Shown: piece after piece, positions 21,263-35,210 of the stretch
How the letters are laid out: each line of letters begins with the position of its first letter
Position numbering within the stretch: the first letter of the stretch is position 1
Origin: Magnolia sinica
Lineage: Eukaryota > Streptophyta > Magnoliopsida > Magnoliales > Magnoliaceae
Reading direction: 5' to 3'
Assembly: GCF_029962835.1 (NCBI RefSeq)
Contig: NC_080584.1
Coordinates: 82,116,862 to 82,180,861, forward strand
DNA: 64,000 bases
Program-made: the position numbers and the translations under genes
Notes under the pieces: model-generated
What the model saw: only the letters and a program-made list of their open reading frames with translations
Told to the model about the DNA's origin: nothing
The model's database searches: none

Positions 21263-21600
21263 CACTACTAGAAAAGGGGGCAAAGGCTATGAATAAAATC
21301 CGTAGCTTTAGACCTATGGCTACGGTTCTAGTCCGTAGCTATTCCGTAGCACGACCGTAGTCGTAGGTGCTGTAACAATAGGTCTGAAACCTATAGCTAC
21401 GGATTTAATCCGTAGCTATAGGTTACAATAGCTACGAATATAATTCGTAGCAATTATATCTGTAGCGATAAGTATAAACAGATACGAATATTATTTGTAG
21501 CTAAAAGTCTGTAGCAATATGCCAAATTTAATAATGACTACAGCTGTTGGATTACCGGCTACGGTCAATATCTGTAGCTATTTCGTACATTAAAAAATAT
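21263..21600 (+). repeat. CACTA left terminus and subterminal repeats
   Basis: Terminal CACTACTAG is followed by more than ten copies in both orientations of a GTAGCTA / TAGCTACGGATT word. In CACTA elements such subterminal arrays bind the element's accessory protein. Confidence 0.8.
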
Positions 21601-21800
21601 ATATAATCATTTGTTCATTCAATTACCATCTACATAATCATTCATTCATTCCATTACAATCATTCATTCATTCCATTACAATTAATTACAATCATTCATT
21701 CATTCAATTACAATCAATTACAATCCTTCATTCAATCAATTACAATTATAATCAATTACAATCCTTCATTCAATCAGTTACAATTACAATTACAATAATG
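21601..21800 (+). repeat. ATTACAATCATTCATTC simple-repeat tract
   Basis: Irregular tandem ATTCATTC and CAATTACAAT words between the subterminal array and the SMC4 fragment. Confidence 0.75.
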
Positions 21801-21946
21801 CTGAAAATACAAATTTTTGGCTTCATTAGAGAAATTTGCTCGACTTCATCTAGAAATTCCAATGAGAAAGAATTGAAAGAGAAGATATATTTTGACGGTA
21901 TAATTTTTTTTCACAAATAAATAAGCCTTTTTCAGCCATCACCCAC

Positions 21947-22123
21947 CTGAAGAATCAAAAACCGATTGTTGTCCAAGTCCACTCCTTTTCCTTTCAATTT
22001 CTTAGCGACCTCTATAAAATTACTTCCATGGTCATTTATGTAGTACTTTAAAGAGTTGTCTCGAAATGCAACTCTAGTAATGATAAAGTCACTTCCTGTA
22101 ACAGCTTCGTATATTCCATCATC
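21947..22123 (-). pseudogene. SMC4: Captured SMC4 (condensin) exon fragment
   Basis: About 59 codons on the minus strand read D-D-G-I-Y-E-A-V ... S-D-F-I-I-T-R-V-A-F-R-D-N-S ... Y-Y-I-N-D and K-L-K-G-K-G-V-D-L-D-N-N-R-F-L-I-L-Q. This is the N-terminal ATPase-head region of the chromosome-condensation protein SMC4. The exon ends in CAG followed by GTGGGT, a normal donor site after the Gln at which I would expect the next exon to begin. The codons before D-D-G do not fit SMC4, so the 5' part is replaced or intronic. A functional SMC4 has over 1,200 residues; this is a fragment inside the CACTA element, not a gene. Confidence 0.8.
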
Positions 22124-22370
22124 ATACAAATAGTTATGGCATTCATAAATCAGAATGACCATTAGGGGAAAAAAAAACAAAGTGAAAGAAGTGCATCATG
22201 TATAACCATTTTTTTCCTTAATGAATTAATAAAAAATTTAAAGAGGAATGAAATTGACATAAAAGGAATGGTCTCATCATATGGTTTGTAGGGCCAAAAT
22301 AAATGTCTGGACGATTTCCGCAAGGAAGACCATCGGTAGCCACAAGTACCCACTTCCCAAGGAATGGTCT

Positions 22371-25300
22371 CACCATATGGTTTAAGTTATAAGTTTATGT
22401 TAATGTTGTAGGTTATATGTTTAGGTTTAGGTTTAAGTTTAAGGATTTGAGAATACATTTACGTTTTAGGTTTAGGGTTAGGTTTTATGTTTAGGTTAAG
22501 GTTACAGGTTTAAGTTTAGGTTTAGGATTATGTTATAAGTGTAGGTTATAGGTTTAGGTTTAGGTTAGGTTATATGTTAAGGTTTAGGGAATTGAGTTTA
22601 GGTTATAGGTTATAGGTTATAGGTTATAGGTTAAGGTTTAGGTTAATTATAGGTTAAGGTTTAGGTTTAACTTATAGGTTTAGGTTTAGGTTATAGTTTT
22701 GGGATTTGAGAATAAGTTTAGGTTATAAGTTTATGTTAATGTTATAGGTTATAGGTTTATGTTATATGTTTAGATTTAGGGATTTGAGAATACATTTAGG
22801 TTTTAGGTTTAGGTTAAGGTTATAGGTTTAGGTTTAGGTTAAAGGTTATAGCTTTAGGGAATTGAGAATAGGTAATTAAGGTTTAGGTTTAGGAAATCGG
22901 GTTCGAGTTCGGGATCAGGTTGAGGTTTGAGTTTTCAAGTTTAGGTTTAGGTTTAGGTTAGGGAGTTGAGATTAGGATTAGCTGTAGGTTTAGGTTTAGG
23001 GATTTGAGAATACATTTAGGTTTTAGGTTTAGGTTATAGGTTTAGGTTTAGGTTAATGTTAATGTTAGGTTATAGGTTATAGGTTATAGGTTAAGGTTTA
23101 GGTTAAGGTTATTGGTTTAGGTTTAGGTTAAGGTTTAGGTTTAGGTTATAGGTTATATGTTATAGGTTATAGCTTTTGGGAATTGAGAATAGGTTAAGGT
23201 TTAGGTTTAGAAAATCGGGTTCTGGTTCGAGATTGGGTTTAAGTTTGGGTTTTCAAGTTTAGGTTTAGGTTTAGGTTAGGGAGTTGAGATTAGAATTAGG
23301 TGTAGGTTTAAGTTTAGGAATTTGAGAATACATTTAGGTTATAGGTTTAGGTTTAGGTTTTAGGTTTAAGTTAAGGTTCGGTTATAGGTTATAAGTTTAG
23401 GTTATAGGTTATAGGTTATATGTTAAGGTTTAGGTTATAGGTTTAGGTTTAGGTTTAGGTTTAGGTTATAGGTTTAGGTTAGGTTTAGGTTTAGGTTTAG
23501 GTTATAGGTTATAGCTTTAGGGAATTGAGAATAGGTTAAGGTTTAGGTTTAGGAAATTGGGTTCGGGTTCAGTATCAGGTTTAGGTTTGAGTTTTCAAGT
23601 TTAGGTTTAGGTTTATGTTAGGTAGTTGAGATTAGGATTAGGTATAGGTTTAGGTTTATGGATTTGAGAATACATTTAAGTTTTAGGTTTAGGTTTAGGT
23701 TATATTTTTAGGTTTAGGTTTAGGTTAATGTTAGGTTATAGGTTATAAGTTTAAGTTATAGGTTATAGGTTATAGGTTAAGGTTTAGGTTATAGGTTTTG
23801 ATTTAGGTTAAGGTTATAGGTTTAGGTTTAGGTTAAGGTTTAGGTTTAGGTTATATGTTATCTGTTATAGGTTATAGCTTTTGGGAATTGAGAATAGGTT
23901 AAGGTTTAGGTTTAAAAAATCGGGTTCGAGTTTGGGATTAGGTTTAAGTTTGGGTTTTCAAATTTAGGTTTAGGTTTAGGTTAGGAAGTTGAGATTATGA
24001 TTAGGTGTAGGTTTAAGTTTAGGGATTTAAGAATACATTTAGGTTTTAGGTTTATGTTTAGGTTTAGGTTATAGGTTTAGGTTAGGTTTAGGTTTAGGTA
24101 TAGGTTATAGGTTTAGGTTATAGGTTATAGCTTTAGGGAATTGAGAATAGGTTAAGGTTTAGGTTTAAGAAATTGGGTTCGGGTTCAGTATCAGGTTTAG
24201 GTTTGAGTTTTCAAGTTTAGGTTTAGGTTTAGGTTAGGTAGTTGAGATTAGGATTAGGTGTAGGTTTAGGTTTATGGATTTGACAATACATTTAGGTTTT
24301 AGGTTTAGGTTTAGGTTATATTTTTAGGTTTAAGTTTAGGTTAATGTTAGGTTATAAGTTATAAGTTTAAGTTATAGGTTATAGGTTATACGTTAAGGTT
24401 TAGGTTATAGGTTTTGATTTAGGTTAAGGTTATAGGTTTAAGTTTAGGTTAAGGTTTAGGTTTAGGTTATATGTTATAGGTTATAGGTTTTGGGAATTGA
24501 GAATAGGTTAAGGTTTAGGTTTAAAAAATCGGGTTCAGGTTTGGGATTGGGTTTAAGTTTGGATTTTCAAATTTAGGTTTAGGTTTAGGTTAGGGAGTTG
24601 AGATTATGATTAGGTATAGGTTTAGGTTTAGGAATTTAAGAATACATTTAGGTTTTAGGTTTAGGTTTAGGTTTAGGTTTTAGGTTTAGATTATAGGTTT
24701 AGGTTTAGGTTTAGGTTTAGGTCAATGTTAGGTTATAGGTTATAAGTTTAAGTTATAAGTTATAGGTTAAGGTTTACATTATAGGTTTTGGTTTAGGTTA
24801 AGGTTATAGGTTTAGGTTTAGATTTAGGTTATAGGTTATAGCTTTTAGGAATTGAGAATAGGCTAAGGTTAAGGTTTAGGAAATCGGGATTGGGTTTAGG
24901 TTTGGGTTTTCAAGTTTAGGTTTAGGTTTAGGTTAGGGAGTTGAGATTAGGATTAGGTGTAGGTTTAGGTTTAGGGATTTGAGAATACATTTAGGTTTTA
25001 GGTTTAGGTTATAGGTTTAGGTTTAGGTTAAGGTTTGGTTATAGGTTATAAGTTTAGGTTATAGGTTATAGGTTATATGTTAAGATTTAGGTTATAGGTT
25101 TAGGTTTAAGTTTAGGTTATAGGTTTAGGTTAGGTTTAGGTTTAGGTTATAGGTTTAGGTTATAGGTTATTGCTTTAGGAAATTGAGAATAGGTTAAGGT
25201 TTAGGTTTAGGAAATCGTGTTCGAGTTCGGGATTGGGTTTAGGTATGGGTTTTCAAGTTTAGGTTTAGGTTTAGGTTAGGAAGTTGAGATTAGGATTAGG

Positions 25301-26396
25301 TGTAGGTTTTGGTTTAGGGATTTGAGAATACATTTAGGTTTTAGGTTTAGGTTTAGCTTTAGGTTAATGTTAGGTTATAGGTTATAAGTTTAAGTTATAG
25401 ATTATAGGTTATAGGTTAAGGTTTAGGTTATAGGTTTTGGTTTAGGTTAAGGTTATAGGTTATAGCTTTTGGAAATTGAGAATAGGTTAAGGTTTAGGTT
25501 TAGAAAATAAGGTTTGTGTTCGGGATTGGGTTTAAGTTTGGGTTTTCAAGTTTAGGTTTAGGTTTAGGTTAGGGAGTTGAGATTAGGATTAGGTGTAGGT
25601 TTAGGTTTAGGGATTTGAGAATACATTTAGGTTATAGGTTTAGATTCTAGGTTTAGGTTTAGGTTAAGGTTTGGTTATAGGTTATAAGTTTAGCTTATAG
25701 GTTATAGGTTATGTGTCAAGGTTTAGGTTATAGGTATTGATTTAGGTTATGGTTATTGGTTTCGGTTTAGCTTTAGTTTATAGGTTTAGGTTTAGGTTAT
25801 ATGCTATATGTTATAGGTTATAGTTTTTGGGAATTGAGAATTGGTTAAGGTTTAGGTTTAGGAAATCGGGTTTGGGTTTGGGATCGGGTTTATGTTTAGA
25901 TTTTCAAGTTTAGGTTTAGGTTTGGGTTAGGGAGTTGAGATTTGGATTAGGTGTAGGTTAGGTTAGGGATTTGAGAATACATTTAGATTTAGGTTTTAGG
26001 TTTAGGTTAAGGTTATAGGTTTAAGTTATAGGTTTAGGTTTAGGTTATAGGTTGTAGGTTATATCTTTAGGGAATTGAGAATAGGTTAAGATTTATGTTT
26101 ATGAAATCGTATTCGGGTTCGGGATCGAGTTTAGGTTTGGGTTTTCAAGTTTAGGTTTAGGTTTAGGTTAAGGAGTTGAGATTAGGATTAGGTGTATGTT
26201 TAGGTTTAAGGATTTGAGAATACATTTTGGTTTTAGGTTTAGATTCAGGTTTTAGGTTTAGGTTAAGTTTACGGTTTGGTTTAGGTTAAGGTTATAGGTT
26301 TAGGTTTATGTTTAGGTTAAGGTTATAGGTTTAGGTTTAGGTTATAGGTTATAGGTTATAGCTTTAGGGAATTGAGAATAGGTTTAGGTTATAGGT
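22371..26396 (+). repeat. Telomere-like TTTAGG/TTATAGG array with ~340-bp higher-order period
   Basis: About 4 kb of irregular 6- and 7-base units (GGTTTA, GGTTATA, GGTTAA). Standard plant telomere is TTTAGGG; here the third G is nearly always missing. Landmark phrases recur in fixed order: GGGAATTGAGAATAGGTTAAGG, AAATCGGGTTCGGG, GGGTTTTCAAG, GAGTTGAGATTAGGATTAGG, GGATTTGAGAATACATTT. The last occurs near 22451, 22788, 23008, 23326, 23668, 24031, 24284, 24640, 24983, 25326, 25619, 25975 and 26218. Spacings are 220-363, most often near 340. It is a young satellite inside a transposon and not a telomere. Confidence 0.9.
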
Positions 26397-26413
26397 TTAG
26401 GGTGTGGTCTCTG

Positions 26414-26750
26414 TAAATACAGATATAAACACGGCCTTCTCCAATTGGCTAGGCTCCTCCAATGCTGTCCATGGGAAATGGACAGTTTCATCATGGTCAT
26501 AACAGCGGTTCCCACCTTCTAGGGACCCCCGCTCATCCGGATAGCTCTGACGCACATCTGGGTCTACTCCATCAATTTCGAGCAAATACAGATATAAATA
26601 CGGCCTGTCCAAATGGCTAGGCCACTCCAATGTTGTCCATAAGAAATAGACAGCTTCATCATGGTCATAACAACAGTTCCCACCTTCTAGGGACCCCCGC
26701 TCAACATCCGGATAGCTCCGACGCACATCCGGGTCTGCTCCATCAATTTT
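26414..26750 (-). pseudogene. Unrecognised exon-like segment in two tandem copies (168-bp period)
   Basis: Copies start at about 26414 and 26582 (plus-strand coordinates). On the minus strand one frame stays open through both (109 codons), and the main length difference between copies is 3 bases, so frame is kept. Each copy reads I-D-G-[AV]-D-P-D-V-R, then R-G-S-L-E-G-G-N and C-Y-D-H-D-E. I do not recognise the family. It abuts the telomere-like array and lies on the same strand as the four captured exons, so it may be a fifth captured host fragment, duplicated after capture. Confidence 0.5.
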
Positions 26751-28272
26751 TACTGAATTATGCTTGTCCTTCTCATGAGCATGCCTAATATTGCTAATGC
26801 ATGAGATTCAGTACAAATACCTTTTCATGATTCAAAGAAGGGAACTCGAGGGTTTTCCTTACATTAGTATGACATTGGTAGAATTCTGTGTTGTATAATT
26901 CAGTTCTTCAAGTGTGCTCAGCCAAATTGCTCTCAGATATTATCACAAAAAAAAGACATATAGAAACCACTACAAATCTCTCATGTCATGCAAAGAATTT
27001 AAACAGAAAAGGAAACAATTATGAGATCAATTATGCCTAGACCAAAGAAAGAAAAATAATATCTACAAGAAATACCTGCCCTGGCCATGGATTTCTTGAT
27101 TACAACCTCTGTTCATGTTAGCATTTGCATTAATAATGTGTGGAATTATTTGAATATTTTTCACTCCTACGCAGACGATTCAGACAGATCTTGATCTTGC
27201 CAATCTAAGAACATCTGAAGAATTTCTCAAGTTAAGGCACTAACTTTAAGAGATAGAAGCCCATTGTGTTTGCTATCATGCAAGGCCTATGCATTGACAG
27301 GCTGATTATCAGAAGACTAGGATCGTCTGATGGTGGAGTTTCCTTGAAGCATTGACCATTGACAGTGCCCCCAACAGGCAATCACAGAGTTGGGGAGTCG
27401 ATACGAAATCTAGTAATTCATATTGACCATTGTATATTTCCTCTTATATATAAGAATAAGGGCAAATTCTGATATTTTTACCTTATAATTCCGAGTACCA
27501 GCTTACCAATAGGAGAGGTCTCCTTTCAATTCTATCAGTTAGGATTGCACCCAATGCTGTTATCGGAACTTGAAAAACAGTACCATATACAAAAGTTCAG
27601 AAAAAAGGATCTTAAAGTGGAGAAATTTCTGACGTGATTTGCTTGCAGCAGCACATGTGCCAATGTAGATATATTAGGATCCAGTCCACTCATCAGGGGA
27701 GCTACAAGCATACATTGAGTATAGGATGTTGGTCATCTTTTTTCCAACCTCCTTTGGTTAATGACTGGAGAGACCCAAATTTTGCACCATAGCATGTTCA
27801 TGACAACCCTAGCTGATGAATGTTCATTCAAAATACAATCTGTGAGCTATCAAATCAATGATTGCAGTAAGACAAAAGTTGGTGATGGAAATGAAGAATC
27901 AAATATTTCTAAACATTCTCACAACAAGTAGATTTTATCAATTGTAAAAACATTAAAAGAATGTAAGGGCCAAGTTATTTATGAAACTATTGATCAGAGA
28001 CAATCTGTCAGGAACAGTGAGAAAATTTAAATTTGAAAATTTTCCCACTCAGATTTTCCTTCACACAGCATCTATCAGAGAGCCTTGTACCATATCATTT
28101 CCTTTTAATTGGAAACCAACTCTAACACCAACAGAAATGGCACAATGTGAACATAGTCCAGGATAGAGTACTGCACACTCAAAATTCACCGCAAGAAAGA
28201 AGAATATGATTGATTGATTGAATAAATAAAAACTGATATATGTGCGGCAGTAATGACAAGCCAAGTACTACC
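26751..28272. other. CACTA interior, mostly non-coding
   Basis: AT-rich, intron-like sequence. One short plus-strand exon-like piece at about 27180-27251 (after TACGCAG) reads T-I-Q-T-D-L-D-L-A-N-L-R-T-S-E-E-F and faintly recalls C-terminal ends of plant TPR proteins; too short to call. On the minus strand 27230-27430 has brief open frames of unknown origin. Confidence 0.35.
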
Positions 28273-28377
28273 CTATATTGTCTTCCTAAAGTTCTTGGGC
28301 TCCTCAGGGTCCTTAAAAGGGTATGCACCCACTAGCATGACATAGAGGGTTACTCCACATGACCACACATCCACAAT
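28273..28377 (-). pseudogene. Captured SnRK2 protein-kinase exon
   Basis: A 105-base exon follows a good acceptor (TTGCAATTCAG). It reads [20 protein letters not shown] and then [14 protein letters not shown]. This is the kinase subdomain IX region of SnRK2, the ABA/osmotic-stress kinases (SAPK/OST1). From memory, 105 bases is a conserved SnRK2 exon length. The last codon is TAG where family members have CAG before the donor GT, so the exon ends in a stop and the donor is weakened (TAG|GGTAGT). It is a fragment of about 35 codons from a ~350-residue protein, with surrounding intron retained, which implies DNA-level capture. Confidence 0.85.
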
Positions 28378-29758
28378 CTGAATTGCAATAGTAAAAACAG
28401 CTAGCAAGCAGAGTAGATTTGAAATCATGACCATAAAAATAAGAGACAAAAATACTTTTCCTTCGAGGTTTACAAGTGCTCATCTATCAAAATCATACCA
28501 ATAGGAAAATAACGGGTGTGTATATATAACAACGAAAATTCCTAGATTTCATGTAATGACAACAGTCAATACCTATAACAATTTCATAAAGCATGGGAAA
28601 GAAAAGGAATTGATATTTGCATCCACTTTTTGATGTGCCCAACTTTTTCTACATTAACAATAAAATATTTGCAAGTAAAAATAATTGAACTAATGTACTA
28701 TCAAATGCAGATGTGAAAGGTGCATGTAACAAAAAGCAAGGGTAAGAATAGTAGCTCTCACTGAAAATCTGCACCCACCAGGTTTACATCAATGAATTAA
28801 GTGTTCAAACCTCTATATGATGATAACTGCAAGACCGAATACTTGATAACATTCCTGTATTCGTGTTTTCTCCTATATGGAAATAACTTCTTGATTTTGA
28901 AAGACCTTTAGCATGTATGATGCCTTTCTCTGAGGGAATGCATTAATGCAATGTAATCTCTTTTGCCTTAGCTCTCTCTAATGAAAAGATAGACAATTTC
29001 CATGCATTTGAATCAGCCAAGATACAAAGGATTTAAGCAAGTAACAATGACACTTCAATTAGCAAAAAATTCAATCCTCCAACAAAGAAAAAGACTCTTC
29101 TCTATCATATAGAAAAGAGAAAACAAAAGAGTATGACTTCAACATACATAGGAAGCACCCTGTCACTTTGTCATTAATCTCCTACCATTAAAGACAATTA
29201 GCAGGAATCCAGGATGCATTTCAAAACAATTAATTCTGAGCACACATTTTGAAATGCATGTTAAGATTCCTCTAGTTGCATGATTAGTTTCCAATTCCTA
29301 ACTCCACACCAATCTTACCACTGACTCAATCTTGACACACAAGTTTCCTGGACCTAACAACCTTCTAAAACCAAAAGTCATTAAATCTAAGAACAAACTC
29401 CTAGAAGGAATGTTGTTGGAGATTTTTGCACTATGGCCTGCCCCTAGTAGAATGAATAAATGGAGAGTCTGTATTGATAATCGGCCATCTGATGTGTCTT
29501 TCAATAGATCCGGGGATGTTGTGGGGACATTAGTATTCCCCTATATATATGTCATTTCAAAAAGTTAGTATTCCCTATATATGAATTACCCAAGTTTCTT
29601 GACTAGTTTCCAACTCCTTATTTTCTAGCTTTACACCACTACATCCAGTGGATCAAACCTCTGTATGACACCACTACCAACTCTGAATATGAAAAAAAGG
29701 GCATCTATTTCCCGATAAATCAATAATATTATTGGCAAGTAGATATCTTTCAGATTAC
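28378..29758. other. CACTA interior between SnRK2 and TOR fragments
   Basis: AT-rich sequence. Part of it is probably intron captured with the SnRK2 or TOR exon. The open frames on either strand around 29300-29570 have no family pattern. Confidence 0.35.
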
Positions 29759-29880
29759 CTTTGCTCAAGATGCATCAACAATTGTATGAGATGGCGACAA
29801 AGTGCAGGCAGAACATATGCTGGATTCTTTTTAGACAATCTGCCAACAACTGATATAGCAAACTCTCGAACATCAAAATC
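29759..29880 (-). pseudogene. TOR: Captured TOR kinase (Target of Rapamycin) exon
   Basis: A 122-base open exon has an acceptor (TTTTCCATGTCATAG) and a donor (CAAAG|GTAATC), both intact. It reads [16 protein letters not shown] and then [18 protein letters not shown]. This is the HEAT-repeat (MAT/central) region of plant TOR, the growth-controlling phosphatidylinositol-kinase-related kinase of about 2,480 residues. One visible difference from what I recall of the family is Cys where Arg is usual (A-L-R-R-H). It is only one exon. With both splice sites kept, it could be joined into a chimeric transcript with its neighbours. Confidence 0.85.
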
Positions 29881-30068
29881 CTATGACATGGAAAAGAAGA
29901 AGAAAAAAAAAATAGTGAACATGCCCCTATGTTCATAAACGTTTTTCAAATAAAGATAATAGTTCAAAAGCTCATAGAAGAGCCATTAGCAGGTTGTGCC
30001 AAAAATTATACCTCATCAAAAGAAAATCATTATACAAGTAATTACACACAAAAGATAGACAAGCATAC

Positions 30069-30172
30069 CTCACGACTCAAGAAGAACTTCAAATTTTTAA
30101 AGAGAGACTTGCACTCTTTGGTCTCCTTATCTTCTTCTTCATCCTTGCCAGAGGCCCACAAGATGAGTGGGA
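30069..30172 (-). pseudogene. PES: Captured Pescadillo (PES) exon fragment
   Basis: The minus strand reads A-S-G-K-D-E-E-E-D-K-E-T-K-E-C and then L-F-K-N-L-K-F-F-L-S-R-E, followed by a donor (GAG|GTATGC). L-F-K-N-L-K-F-F-L-S-R-E-V-P is a signature of Pescadillo, the nucleolar ribosome-biogenesis (PeBoW) protein, just before its BRCT domain. Upstream, the expected G-A-L-M-H-L-V region is damaged by small indels (CACTCATCTTGTGG). This is the most 5' of the four recognised fragments in minus-strand order. Confidence 0.8.
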
Positions 30173-31081
30173 CTTAGAGAAGTTCCATCATAGGTCGCTC
30201 TAACATGAAACTGTGATGCCTCAAAAATCAGGCTAACCATAAAAACCAATGATGCACAACCATTCAAAAGACTCTAAATTTGCATTTGTAGACCCATATA
30301 CCAAACAGTTGCACAAATTTCTCATCTTCAATCAGTACATTGTTTTAAATGGCTTCAAATTGCTATTGCCTAATGATGCAAACATGAAATTGGAACATAA
30401 CAATAGATGCCAACCAACATTTGGGTGTATTAGAAAATGTTCATAAATACGAAATAAGGCTTTCGAGAATCAAAGGTAATGAACCTTGATAATATACATA
30501 AATTGCAAACGAATAGAAAGTATTTTTTGAGCTTGAAACCTCAGTGGTTTTGATATAAGGGCATCAAACCAATGTCACAGATTCATTCACAGCTGATCCA
30601 AAAGGAAAAACAACTATTAAATTGTATGCCATGGCACTAGACATAAGGTCACAACATTAATGGAAAAAAAGAAGATAAAATGCAAAGAATCGGTTGAAAA
30701 AGAAGTTCTCAAGGTACTGCTCGGAGCTCCTACCTGAGCGAAATAATTCTATAAGATCCAGGAGTGATAGTTTCAAAACAAATGGCACCACCAATGGTCA
30801 CTTGGCCAATGCTGAAAATGCTAGAATGGTATGCACTATTTCTTGGTTTCACTGTCATAAGATATGTGGTGGCTAACCCTACATGCATATTTTGGCCTAT
30901 TTTCTTCTTTGCAAGTTTAACTTTAAGAACATACACTCGTTTCTTCTCGTCATTAGTTACTAGCCTCTGCTATACGAATTAAGAGTGTATTTTATGACGA
31001 TGCATGTTTCTTTAAAGACACACCTTAAAAAAATTTAAAAATCACAAAACAAGGGATTCTTATGACCTTAGGAAGTATTTC
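30173..31081. other. CACTA interior; one unassigned exon-like piece near 30725-30800
   Basis: On the minus strand 30735-30800 reads P-F-V-L-K-L-S-L-L-D-L-I-E-L-F-R-S before a donor-like CTCAG|GTAGGA. It looks like a helical-repeat exon, but I cannot assign it, and an in-frame stop lies shortly upstream. The rest is AT-rich, intron-like sequence. Confidence 0.3.
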
Positions 31082-31489
31082 AGGGCCTGTTTCGCCTAAC
31101 ATCTTGGATGGGATTGGAAGGGATTAGAAGGGATTGGAAGATAGATCCCAGATTGACCAGGCGTGCCAAACAGACACGGGATCTTGATCCCGGGATGTTG
31201 TAATCGCATAGATCTTAAGACAATCCACTGACATCACCATCATTACCTTTAAATCCCATCCAATCCACCCTAATCCATTCAAAATTTCTTGGGACGTGTT
31301 TGGTTCAAGGGATTGAAAGGGATTGGAAGGTTTAATCCCGGGATTGGCTGGGCGTCCCAAACAAACTGGAAATAGCAATCCCATAGATCTTGCACCAATC
31401 CACTGATGCAGTTATCATTACCTTGAAATCCGTGCAATCCACTCTAATACCATCCAATTCCATCCAATCTGCCCAGCAAAACAGGCCCT
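31082..31489. mobile_element. MITE pair with AGGGCCTGTTT ends
   Basis: AGGGCCTGTTT at the left and AAACAGGCCCT at the right bound about 408 bases made of two related ~200-base units (second starts near 31285, GGGACGTGTTTGGTTCAAGGG). Both are rich in GGGATTGGAAGGGATT and its complement. AGGGCCTGTTTGG ends are common in plant Tourist/hAT-like MITEs. Target duplication not visible, so superfamily is open. It lies inside the CACTA element and is therefore a later insertion or was carried along. Confidence 0.6.
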
Positions 31490-31620
31490 AATGGTGGGCG
31501 TTCAATCACCACAGTTTTCTATGGTGTGGTCCACCTGAGATTTAGCCCTAAAATGAGTTGAAAAAAATGAATGGCCCACATACACATATTATGGTGGAGC
31601 CCACGAAGCATTTTTAGATT
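31490..31620. repeat. GGCCCAC-type repeat end
   Basis: Contains TTCTATGGTGTGGTCCACCTGAGATTTAGCCC ... AATGGCCCACATACACATATTATGGTGGAGCCCACGAAG, the right half of the dispersed family. Confidence 0.5.
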
Positions 31621-31995
31621 TCAGAAACAGAGAGAGGGGAATGCGGATTGAAGGATTGAGCATCCAAACGCAACAGATTTGAGAAACAGATAAAGAGAGA
31701 GAAAGAGAGAAACTAACTGTGGTCCTTCTTCATCTCCTTCTCCTTCTTGCAGTGAAAGGGGTTTTTGAAAACAGAGAGAGGGGAATGCGGCCAAGAGACA
31801 GGGAGAGAGGGTGAGGGAGAGCGGGAGATTGAGAGAGGGCAAGGGAAAGAGAGAGACTGAGTGCAAGAGAGAGAGATGGAGAGATGGTTTTCGTCTGCGC
31901 GCAGGAGAAAATGGCGGACGGGAAGGGTTTTGTTTTTGGGACGGGGTTCGGATTTTGGAGGGGCGTGTGACGAATGGCTCCTTGGGGACGTTGGG
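31621..31995 (-). promoter_or_regulatory. CT-rich promoter/5'UTR-like region
   Basis: On the minus strand this is a long run of CTCTCTCTC / CCCTCTCTC with a GC-rich start (CCGCCATTTTCTCCTGCGCGCAG), typical of 5' leaders of plant housekeeping genes. It lies upstream, in minus-strand sense, of the PES, TOR, SnRK2 and SMC4 fragments. It may be a captured promoter that transcribes them; that is inference. The open frame across it is low-complexity and not called as a gene. Confidence 0.4.
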
Positions 31996-32320
31996 TTTTA
32001 GGACCGTGGGGCCCACTGTGATGTATTTCATATATCCACTCCGTCCATTAATTTTAAATTATTATTTTAAGTGCTGATATAAAAAAAATGAGTTAGATAG
32101 AATCTGTAAGGAGACCATACAAAATATTAACAGTAGAAATTTAATTTTTATTATTTCTTATGGTGTGGTCTACTTAGACATTTAATCTATATAATTTTTG
32201 GGCTCATGCACTAAAATTATATATCAGAATTGTTGGACAACTTAGATCAAACACATATATTCCAATGGACCCCATGGATCCCCTTAAGCACCATTTATGT
32301 TTAATATGGTTTAGGTGAGG
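31996..32320. mobile_element. GGCCCAC-type MITE inside the CACTA element
   Basis: The left half is GGGGCCCACTGTGATGTATTTCATATATCCACTCCGTCCATT and the right half GACAACTTAGATCAAACACATATATTCCAATGGACCCCATGG, with the usual TATGGTGTGGTCTACTTAG centre. Ends not resolved. Confidence 0.5.
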
Positions 32321-32339
32321 AGGTATGCTTTAGCGACAT

Positions 32340-32448
32340 ATCACTTAAGCTTTAGCTACGGATTAAATCTGTAGCTATATTGCTATGGATTTAATCTGTG
32401 GCTAAAAGCTTTCAAAGTCTATAGCCTTTACTCGATTTTTTGGTAGTG
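32340..32448 (-). repeat. CACTA right terminus and subterminal repeats
   Basis: Contains TTTAGCTACGGATTAAATCTGTAGCTA, GCTATGGATTTAATCTGTGGCTA and the terminal ...TTTTTTGGTAGTG. The same word family occurs at the left terminus. Confidence 0.8.
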
Positions 32449-34320: not shown

Positions 34321-34485
34321 GGAGACGTGAGAGAGAGCAATCATTCTTTGGGAGCAGCCATGGAGGCACAATCTTGGACGTGTGGAGCGTGGCATCATCT
34401 AAAGTTCTTTCCTTCTTCTTAGTTTTTCTTCTTTTCCTTTTATACTTTCTTTTAAGAGATTTTTAGTTTGATTTTGTCAGGTTAA

Positions 34486-34509
34486 ACCTCTTAGCTAGGG
34501 CTAAGAGGT
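34486..34509 (+). other. Conserved LTR hairpin (copy 1)
   Basis: ACCTCTTAGC-TAGG-GCTAAGAGGT is a perfect 10-base stem with a 4-base loop about 165 bases after the TATA box. It is identical in all four LTR copies in the window while their surroundings differ. Confidence 0.85.
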
Positions 34510-35210
34510 GAAGCTTGTAGTAAGATGGGATGTTTTTTTACATTTTGATTCGTATTTATAAACTCTCATTGAGTCTGGTTTGATTATAAGGAATGCCTTT
34601 AGTTTTTAATGGTTTGTTGTGACTTAAATTGTAATAGATCTGCGATAGCTTTGAGTATTGCTTTTTCATTATTATGATTGTAAAGTTAAGAAGCCCTGTT
34701 GTTCACTATTGTCCCTTGGACATGGTTGGATGATGTAATCCTTCTTAACATTCATATATCTCTCCGATTAGTTGTGGATTGGTTAAATTCTGTTGTTTTC
34801 TTTGTCTCATAGGCATGGTTTTGTGATGGAATCAATTCTAATTCTCATTCTTCTCATCTCTTGAAAACTAGATCAAATGAAGTTCAGATTCGATTTTTAG
34901 TGATATATCTTCTAACTGGATAAAGATGAGACTCTCAATCTAGTTGTGTTTATGAATCAAACATAGATCTCTCAGATCTCTACAAGTGGATCCTTGACAC
35001 CCTAGTTTCCCATCTTTGAATTCTACAAGTTTTAGTTAATTAATTCACCATTATTCTCTTAATTCTCCCTGATTTAGATTACATCTTTGCCTAGTTCTGG
35101 TTCAAGTTACTTTCAGATTACGTACAAGGTTCAGTCCCTGTGGATTCGACCTCGGTCTTACCTAGATTATTACTACATCACAACCCTATACTTGGGGTGT
35201 GAATAGTTTC

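Follow-up and report, generated by a model that had tools for sequence, protein, structure and literature searches.

The stretch from 21263 to 32448 of the window (the whole 64,000-nucleotide segment of Magnolia sinica DNA analysed here) is one non-autonomous CACTA (En/Spm-type) element of 11.2 kb. Very probably, it is an old Pack-CACTA element of a large M. sinica family, which obtained its cargo by repeated patchwork acquisition and has since decayed. The element carries pieces of at least five host genes, and probably of seven (Table 1).

Table 1. Features of the element, in window coordinates
Feature	Position	Strand	Basis or remark
Whole CACTA element, non-autonomous	21263..32448		Termini, subterminal repeats, full-length sister on chromosome C6 flanked by an exact target-site duplication (TSD)
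Left end and subterminal repeats	21263..21762		First 438 bp recurs in genome
Start of next SMC4 exon (EVEQISLMKPK)	21815..21850	-	Frame 21770-21910, minus; family alignment
SMC4 exon piece (DDGIYEAV...RFLILQ)	21947..22123	-	PDB SMC4, E 1e-11
Telomere-like TTTAGG/TTATAGG array	22379..26408		Higher-order repeat of ~240-360 bp; family core
Two copies of ~165-bp tandem unit EIDGVDPDVRQSYPDERGSLEGGN	26415..26749	-	Open on minus strand; family core
Junction of ~1.17-kb deletion relative to C6 sister	26861..26865		Comparison with C6
Probable sugar-transporter (MFS) region, piece 1	27062..27301	-	94.2% to C19:59875200-59877000
Probable sugar-transporter region, piece 2, QVPITALGAILTDRIERRPLLLVS reading frame	27525..27826	-	88-89% to C19:59875200-59877000
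110-bp piece	27819..27928		Three further matches elsewhere, at 90-91%
SnRK2 gene piece, introns included	27930..29661	-	SRK2E, E 1e-16; C16:68919600-68923100
Filler, TOR, Pescadillo and 20-bp block	29655..30175	-	Common to four loci outside the subfamily
TOR kinase HEAT-repeat exon and flanking intron	29692..30018	-	Exon 29759-29880; mTOR, E 4e-7
Pescadillo exon 3' part, donor site, intron start	30017..30155	-	97.1% to C19:1699157
Beta-galactosidase (GH35) piece, essentially intron	30192..30690	-	89.8% to C2:22588500-22590400
ATG18/BCAS3-like exon piece SRYCSELLPERNNSIRSRSDSF...	30700..31006	+	94.5% to C12:60853700-60855700
Right core and right end of family	31013..32448		31013-31060 recurs; right end in cargo-sharing copies

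Borders of the element and the family shell

The element has 5'-CACTA...TAGTG-3' termini with a short terminal inverted repeat. The left terminus (CACTACTAG...) lies at 21263 and its inverted partner ends at 32448; the two match at 22 of 30 terminal bases in the window copy and at 24 of 30 in its C6 sister, and there is a 34-bp inverted match between the left and right ends of the window element. Six subterminal words, which were picked after the element ends had been inspected, are found at 13 sites in the left 500 bp and at three in the right 500 bp; for 103 stretches taken from outside the element, the mean is 0.02 per 500 bp. These terminal bases and words bear out an earlier sequence-only reading, according to which CACTA termini and subterminal repeats enclose the stretch. 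The trinucleotides flanking the window copy (AAT and AAA) are imperfect and give no exact TSD; exact 3-bp TSDs flank all four other copies for which both ends were found (AGT in C6, GAT in C1, TTT in C9, and ATC in C14:58.3M).

The cargo and right end are common to five copies at different chromosomal sites. Both ends were found in the window, C6, and C9 copies, whereas for the C4 and C14:18.9M copies a search at the expected positions revealed no left end. The C6 sister is 95.2% identical to the window copy over the gene-fragment half, and region 27100-28060, which is complete in four cargo-sharing copies, is only partly present in C9. Other copies with the same ends thus exist in the genome, and the C6 and C9 sisters, with both ends and exact TSDs, indicate that the ends belong to one element rather than to two. 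Likewise, the five copies argue that the fragments move with the ends and are not dispersed pseudogenes.

Copies of the family share a recurring shell that consists of the left end, in which lies an old pair of SMC4 exons, a telomere-like array (approx. 4 kb in the window; present in 17 of the 20 copies read), the 165-bp unit, and a 1.4-kb right end, the last being present in the five cargo-sharing copies; the cargo between these parts varies from copy to copy. Among 2103 candidate places for the first 438 bp of the left end, 40 were scored, and the others are 86-91% identical. The corresponding search for the SMC4 segment yielded 777 candidates, of which 40 were scored, all near full length, with the others at 91-94%. 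All 40 are full-length element-type matches, and the SMC4 host gene is not among them. Segment 31013-31060 occurs in 16 further places. The SMC4 piece and the telomere-like array belong to the family core. Neither Pfam nor PDB assigns the 165-bp unit to a known family; it matches three proteins without a Pfam domain, one from M. sinica and two unnamed or hypothetical.

The longest stop-to-stop frame inside the window element is 145 aa, and the Transposase_21 domain comprises 213 positions; thus, no intact domain fits one frame, in keeping with the earlier remark that no transposase is seen. Transposase_21 is abundant in the genome (1669 candidates; all 150 that were scored lie above the cut-off), and a full transposase-bearing element with these ends was not found among the copies read. 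A relative at C14:62.9M was considered as the autonomous partner and rejected, as it is nested and its only Transpos_assoc frame falls just below the cut-off.

Host-gene pieces

Assignment to the Pack-CACTA class, proposed from sequence, is upheld by host-gene pieces with donors elsewhere, by the want of an intact transposase, and by cargo that moves with the ends. Donors are confirmed for Pescadillo (C19) and beta-galactosidase (C2), and the C16 and C12 loci are candidate donors of the SnRK2-like and ATG18/BCAS3-like pieces, respectively. The SMC4, SnRK2, TOR, and Pescadillo fragments named by the sequence-only reading are all present, and all four lie on the minus strand, but that inventory was incomplete: the beta-galactosidase, plus-strand ATG18/BCAS3-like, and probable sugar-transporter pieces had been missed. 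Pfam searches with nine raw translations of the element found little.

By itself, the Pescadillo fragment gives an E value of only 0.89. Its identity follows from the C19 host locus, which is 97% identical to the fragment and whose next exon matches Pescadillo (E 1e-7). The SnRK2 piece includes one exon at 28276-28377 and, around 28120-28185, what is left of the next; its identity to the C16 locus is 90.3% and 92.7-92.9%, and 82 bp of that locus are absent at 28145 in the window copy. The C16 locus has intact exons, yet visual inspection of 4.9 kb showed no further SnRK2 exon, and the locus is accordingly taken as a candidate donor rather than as an established complete gene. The beta-galactosidase donor is better characterised, its exons matching GHD (E 1.4e-28) and Glyco_hydro_35 (E 7e-8). 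The remaining names are more tentative. The plus-strand piece, which we take to be ATG18-like, matches only BCAS3_WD40 in Pfam, below the cut-off (E 0.01), and nothing in PDB or NCBIfam; the two pieces at 27062..27301 and 27525..27826 presumably derive from a sugar transporter, to judge from a motif for which Pfam, NCBIfam, and PDB gave no confirmation.

The expectation that most fragments keep usable splice sites was correct in part. In the window copy, both sites of the TOR exon, the Pescadillo donor, and both sites of the SMC4 intron are kept, and the SMC4 downstream donor is intact, but the SMC4 upstream acceptor is lost, as is the SnRK2 exon-2 acceptor, and the SnRK2 exon-1 donor is altered, with a new stop. 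In addition, a stop codon lies just before the Pescadillo frame.

Assembly of the cargo

The TOR and Pescadillo pieces appear to have had a history of their own. TOR-only places number 25 elsewhere in the genome, and the block at 29655..30175, with both pieces, is 94-95% identical at C5, C7 (two loci), and C9:30.7M. The order of a capture relay can be read from tiered matches of 701, 521, 327, and 159 bp, together with the flank that C5 and C10 share. Most simply, the block would have come second-hand, already joined, from another chimera. The idea that a single element captured four genes therefore does not hold, since SMC4 is part of the family core, TOR and Pescadillo were, most simply, joined elsewhere, and further genes are present.

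From 27525 to 31013, adjoining pieces overlap by at most 8 nt or sit at most 16 nt apart, with two exceptions, namely a filler of approx. 30 nt ahead of TOR and, behind Pescadillo, 20 nt of C10-type sequence. In the subfamily of five cargo-sharing copies, the cargo is a patchwork of host-gene pieces that abut one another between the family shell parts and were taken at the DNA level, introns included; the TOR-Pescadillo part, as the junctions are most simply read, was obtained from a different chimera in which the two had been joined before. We infer, from the junctions alone, that the pieces may have been inserted over several rounds when a gap or break within the element was wrongly repaired with switches of template. 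The finished element would then have been moved by Transposase_21 supplied in trans and would have decayed after its transposition.

Alternatively, the cargo might have grown by repeated fusion, in which two nearby related elements are mobilised as one with the intervening DNA. Fusion of neighbouring insertions is a published model for Pack-TYPE elements (PMC8903248, for the part of that account drawn on here), and the window element, too, has internal cargo and conserved ends. However, pieces of 110-1700 bp related to loci on C16, C19, C2, and C12 lie directly against one another, with hardly any intervening element sequence, whereas each round of fusion would presumably leave behind remnants of ends or pieces from a single locus, so that this route is possible but rather unlikely.

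The element or its relatives could also act as a working exon shuffler, with the SMC4 exon as a common 3' exon and with chimeric RNAs that are made and used. Indeed, NCBI annotates two in-frame Pescadillo-TOR proteins, one of which was mapped to the other chimera class, and nine M. sinica proteins of 80-152 aa with the family-type SMC4 exon; the searches were confined to proteins with 0.55-1.75 times the length of the query, and longer chimeras would be missed. Four of the nine are joined to other genes: F-actin-capping beta is the partner in two (P0051 exceeds the Pfam cut-off, P0063 falls just short of it) and oxysterol-binding protein in the other two (P0064 above the cut-off, P0032 below). 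Moreover, 14 of the 18 other copies that contain the segment keep the SMC4 acceptor AG at its position, three have it shifted by one base, and one has lost it. Nonetheless, the protein models might be no more than predictions, 8 of the 19 copies with the SMC4 exon have it in broken form, the splice and stop lesions described above affect the window copy, and four amino-acid replacements are among the differences between window and C6 in the TOR exon. A working shuffler is accordingly improbable. A chimeric transcript is supported at the annotation level only, and for relatives only. A function of the window copy is unlikely; its putative activity would be at most at the RNA level, as a stray chimeric transcript or small RNAs.

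It is highly improbable that two unrelated CACTA ends merely happen to lie on either side of scattered host pseudogenes or nested repeats. The inexact flanks of the window copy and the wide dispersal of TOR pieces by themselves would suit this view, but the same cargo and right end recur in five copies at different sites, and the view is contradicted by the C6 sister, with both ends, cargo, and an exact TSD, and by the exact TSD of C9.

Relation to known elements and significance

The old, patchwork-built Pack-CACTA favoured here has known counterparts, compared below as far as the published descriptions drawn on extend. Soybean Tgm-Express1, in the wp allele, is a CACTA element of 5.7 kb with exon-intron pieces of five unrelated host genes, for which chimeric spliced RNAs were demonstrated (PMC1947982). 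The Magnolia element is likewise a CACTA built of host exon-intron pieces, but it is 11.2 kb long with five confirmed and two probable gene pieces, it occurs in five copies with shared cargo, it contains a telomere-like array and an SMC4 exon common to the family, its cargo apparently derives in part from another chimera, and it is known from DNA, not RNA. Pack-CACTA and other Pack-TYPE elements of Arabidopsis, rice, and maize are non-autonomous TIR elements whose ends are conserved and whose interior contains host coding pieces (PMC8903248), all of which the Magnolia element shares; the examples drawn there carry one or two short pieces, in contrast to the dense patchwork, introns, and apparent inter-element relay of the Magnolia element. 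Chenopodium CACTA elements (Jozin) hold captured gene fragments and satellite arrays (PMC8978399) and in this resemble the Magnolia element, whose array, unlike theirs, consists of telomere-like repeats and is situated next to the SMC4 exon within the family shell. Searches for literature on CACTA elements in Magnolia, Liriodendron, and other plants found nothing, and Magnolia with CACTA gene capture led to the Chenopodium paper only; for telomere-like repeats together with CACTA, the papers that came up concern repeats of Silene and oat genomes.

Gene capture by DNA transposons is well known, although the order and route of captures are seldom visible. The type of element is thus already known, and it is the stepwise history left in the genome that is unusually readable. 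Likely intermediates persist in one genome, from host gene to first chimera, joined block, and final element, and the case therefore offers a test of the ways in which cargo is gained, with a hint that one element can hand pieces on to another. Among the short NCBI proteins of M. sinica labelled "SMC4-like" or "uncharacterized", some probably originate from exons carried by transposons. It is doubtful that the family is a modular exon-shuffling system in which the recurring shell provides the SMC4 exon as a shared downstream exon and interchangeable host exons are delivered upstream of it, by capture or chimera relay; if it were, many different X-to-SMC4 chimeric RNAs would be made across the genome.

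Ends and copies of the element

CACTA termini bound 21263-32448 of the window (C12:82116862-82180861), which lies in a genome of 1.84 Gb; a Magnolia sinica genome of this size has been published (PMC10999834). Of 30 bases in the inverted repeats, 22 are identical; at the ends, subterminal words are far more frequent than in the background. The left 438 bp has 2103 candidate places genome-wide; 40 of these, including the window, were scored, and the others are 86-91% identical. Approximately 10 kb was read from each of 20 left-end copies chosen among the 40. In the aligned first 1.1 kb, 18 of them show 88.8-93.7% identity, the more divergent being the fetched stretches L012 (74.4%) and L018 (64.8%). 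The sequence-only reading had proposed a genome search for copies with the same ends: both ends and an exact target-site duplication (TSD) are found in the C6 sister (12,530 bp, AGT/AGT), and in the copies at C1 (8.9 kb, GAT/GAT), C9 (approx. 19.3 kb, TTT/TTT) and C14:58.3M (approx. 10.8 kb, ATC/ATC), the last two with interiors read in part. The window copy is flanked by AAT/AAA, from which we infer one-base decay of the TSD. Beyond the element, window 34483-34734 is 80% similar to sequence beside the right end of the C9 copy and is probably another dispersed repeat.

Shell and cargo

The family-wide shell consists of a 5.6-kb left part, which comprises the end, the pair of SMC4 exons, the array and the 165-bp unit, and of a 1.4-kb right part starting at 31013; individual copies lack some of these components. 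The array, present in 17 of the 20 copies read, is in the window a 4-kb telomere-like TTTAGG/TTATAGG array with higher-order repeats (22379-26408; TTTAGG 202 times, TTTAGGG 14 times). The SMC4 segment has 777 candidate places; since all 40 scored are near full length (those other than the window at 91-94%), SMC4 is, on this comparison, not an acquisition of the window copy itself. The SMC4 fragment proposed earlier is present; it is family-wide and not captured by this copy.

The cargo between the shell parts (Table) differs among copies. In the C18 copy (14.8 kb read), only 26861-27465 of the window cargo was found; the C1 copy has a different open frame in the cargo position; and, relative to the C6 sister, the window copy has a deletion of approx. 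1.17 kb at 26861-26865. Searches with SnRK2, TOR-Pescadillo and right-cargo sequence recovered five cargo-carrying copies (window, C6, C4:83.3M, C9:60.7M and C14:18.9M), the C14 match in the right-cargo search reaching position 864 of 911. The sequence searched at the left side of the cargo (27100-28060) is complete in four of the five, with the last 210 bp only at C9:60.7M.

Table. Pieces in the cargo of the window copy
Piece	Position	Strand
Probable sugar-transporter piece	27062-27301	
Probable sugar-transporter piece	27525-27826	
Piece of unknown origin	27819-27928	
SnRK2 piece, introns included	27930-29661	
TOR piece	29692-30018	
Pescadillo piece	30017-30155	
Beta-galactosidase piece	30192-30690	
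ATG18/BCAS3-like piece	30700-31006	plus

Including SMC4, library searches confirm five genes, and two more are probable. The four genes named in the sequence-only reading (Pescadillo, TOR, SnRK2 and SMC4) are all among the five, but four is not the full count, as beta-galactosidase and the two probable genes are added. From 27525 onward, adjoining pieces overlap by at most 8 nt or leave gaps of at most 16 nt, with two exceptions: a filler of approx. 30 nt 5' of TOR in window coordinates, and 20 nt of C10-type sequence beyond Pescadillo. Within the cargo region, 26866-27061 and 27302-27524 have no assigned gene match.

Proposed relay of TOR and Pescadillo

A query of 29600-30300 found 39 genomic places. 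The whole 701 bp is matched at five of them (the C4 match begins at position 3), and four others match just 29655-30175. A further 25 places have TOR alone and two have Pescadillo alone; the remaining three matches are small. The Pescadillo host locus is on C19. At a C10 chimera, Pescadillo sequence continues over 406 columns (94.3% to C19), and 20 bp past the Pescadillo border is also present (98.1% over 159 bp); the 4 kb read there revealed no adjacent TOR. The C5 block copy, the one of the four block loci outside the subfamily whose flanks were read, runs past 30175 into C10-type sequence (92.5% over 506 columns and 89.0% over 665 columns). The simplest order suggested by these matches would lead from the Pescadillo host gene to a C10-type chimera, then to a C5-type joined block and finally to the CACTA subfamily of the window. 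The C10 chimera (L032, C10:36485400-36489400) is likely the upstream source of the Pescadillo piece. It also holds a helicase-like piece (Helicase_C E 0.0097, under the cut-off) and one that we take to be SEMI-ROLLED LEAF2-like.

Sequence was fetched for ten of the 25 TOR-only places. Six of the ten (L035-L040, e.g., C6:56105300-56107600) form a second, young repeat family with TOR exons, sharing 94.7-99.0% identity over 1.7-2.3 kb; L036, the member read through, has three TOR exons. The other four (L041-L044) are of a different type with more TOR exons. Among 150 scored of 1669 Transposase_21 candidates, a match lies within 8 kb of three of the 25 places (C5:84.9M, C6:56.1M and C14:81.6M), two of which are fetched members of the L035-L040 type. 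This proximity suggests that the type is probably a transposase-bearing CACTA element with TOR cargo. Either an element of this type or the TOR gene itself may have supplied the TOR piece of the window copy.

Coding state and annotated chimeras

The predicted Pescadillo-to-TOR splice product is in frame, with 75 open codons, in the window and C6. Two NCBI proteins of 97 aa each cross the same splice points: P0004, which matches C7:67940134-67940580, one of the four block loci, and P0005, whose contig has the length of C9. Against the five element copies, the match of the first P0004 exon begins at residue 9, with a TAA in every matched stretch; in the window, a stop stands directly ahead of the Pescadillo frame.

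The family-type SMC4 exon occurs in nine NCBI Magnolia sinica proteins among 85 search matches (P0016, P0031, P0032, P0035, P0043, P0046, P0051, P0063 and P0064), which are short and named 'SMC4-like' or uncharacterized. Four are fused to parts of other genes: F-actin-capping beta in P0051 (Pfam E 2e-14) and P0063 (E 3e-5, under the cut-off), and oxysterol-binding protein in P0064 (E 8e-17) and P0032 (E 6e-4, under the cut-off). None of the nine exceeds 86% identity to the window, so the window copy is not among them. Among the 19 aligned copies that have it, the exon is open in 11 and broken in eight; it is wholly or partly absent from L012 and L018. No sign of constraint was seen in the coding state of the window copy.

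Mechanism and precedent

The window element would have been moved by a Transposase_21 protein acting in trans. At C14:62913600-62931399 (L027 and L031), a copy contains a nested reversed CACTA element with a right end common to both (84%) and a Transpos_assoc reading frame slightly under the cut-off. A long open frame (SMNMSLSDNG...) lies within or adjoining other copies (L017 7542-8413, L009 1-879), and a Pfam search of it gave no family over the cut-off.

The mechanism of Rubin and Levy is reportedly gap repair. For the cargo, pieces from several chromosomes would have been joined by template switching during repair, which appears to fit better than a single fusion event because the patchwork comes from several chromosomes with tight joints. 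PMC8978399 cites a mechanism of Rubin and Levy for acquisition. Acquisition by fusion of elements, a model described in PMC8903248, fits less well as a single event, given the several source chromosomes and the tight joints.

The direct precedent for such a gene-piece patchwork is soybean Tgm-Express1, a CACTA element with five gene pieces and spliced chimeric RNAs (PMC1947982). The window element is, by its sequence, of the same kind and has more pieces (five confirmed and two probable). Relative to Tgm-Express1, it adds the number of pieces, a readable relay, a shell that carries SMC4 and, in relatives, annotated chimeras.
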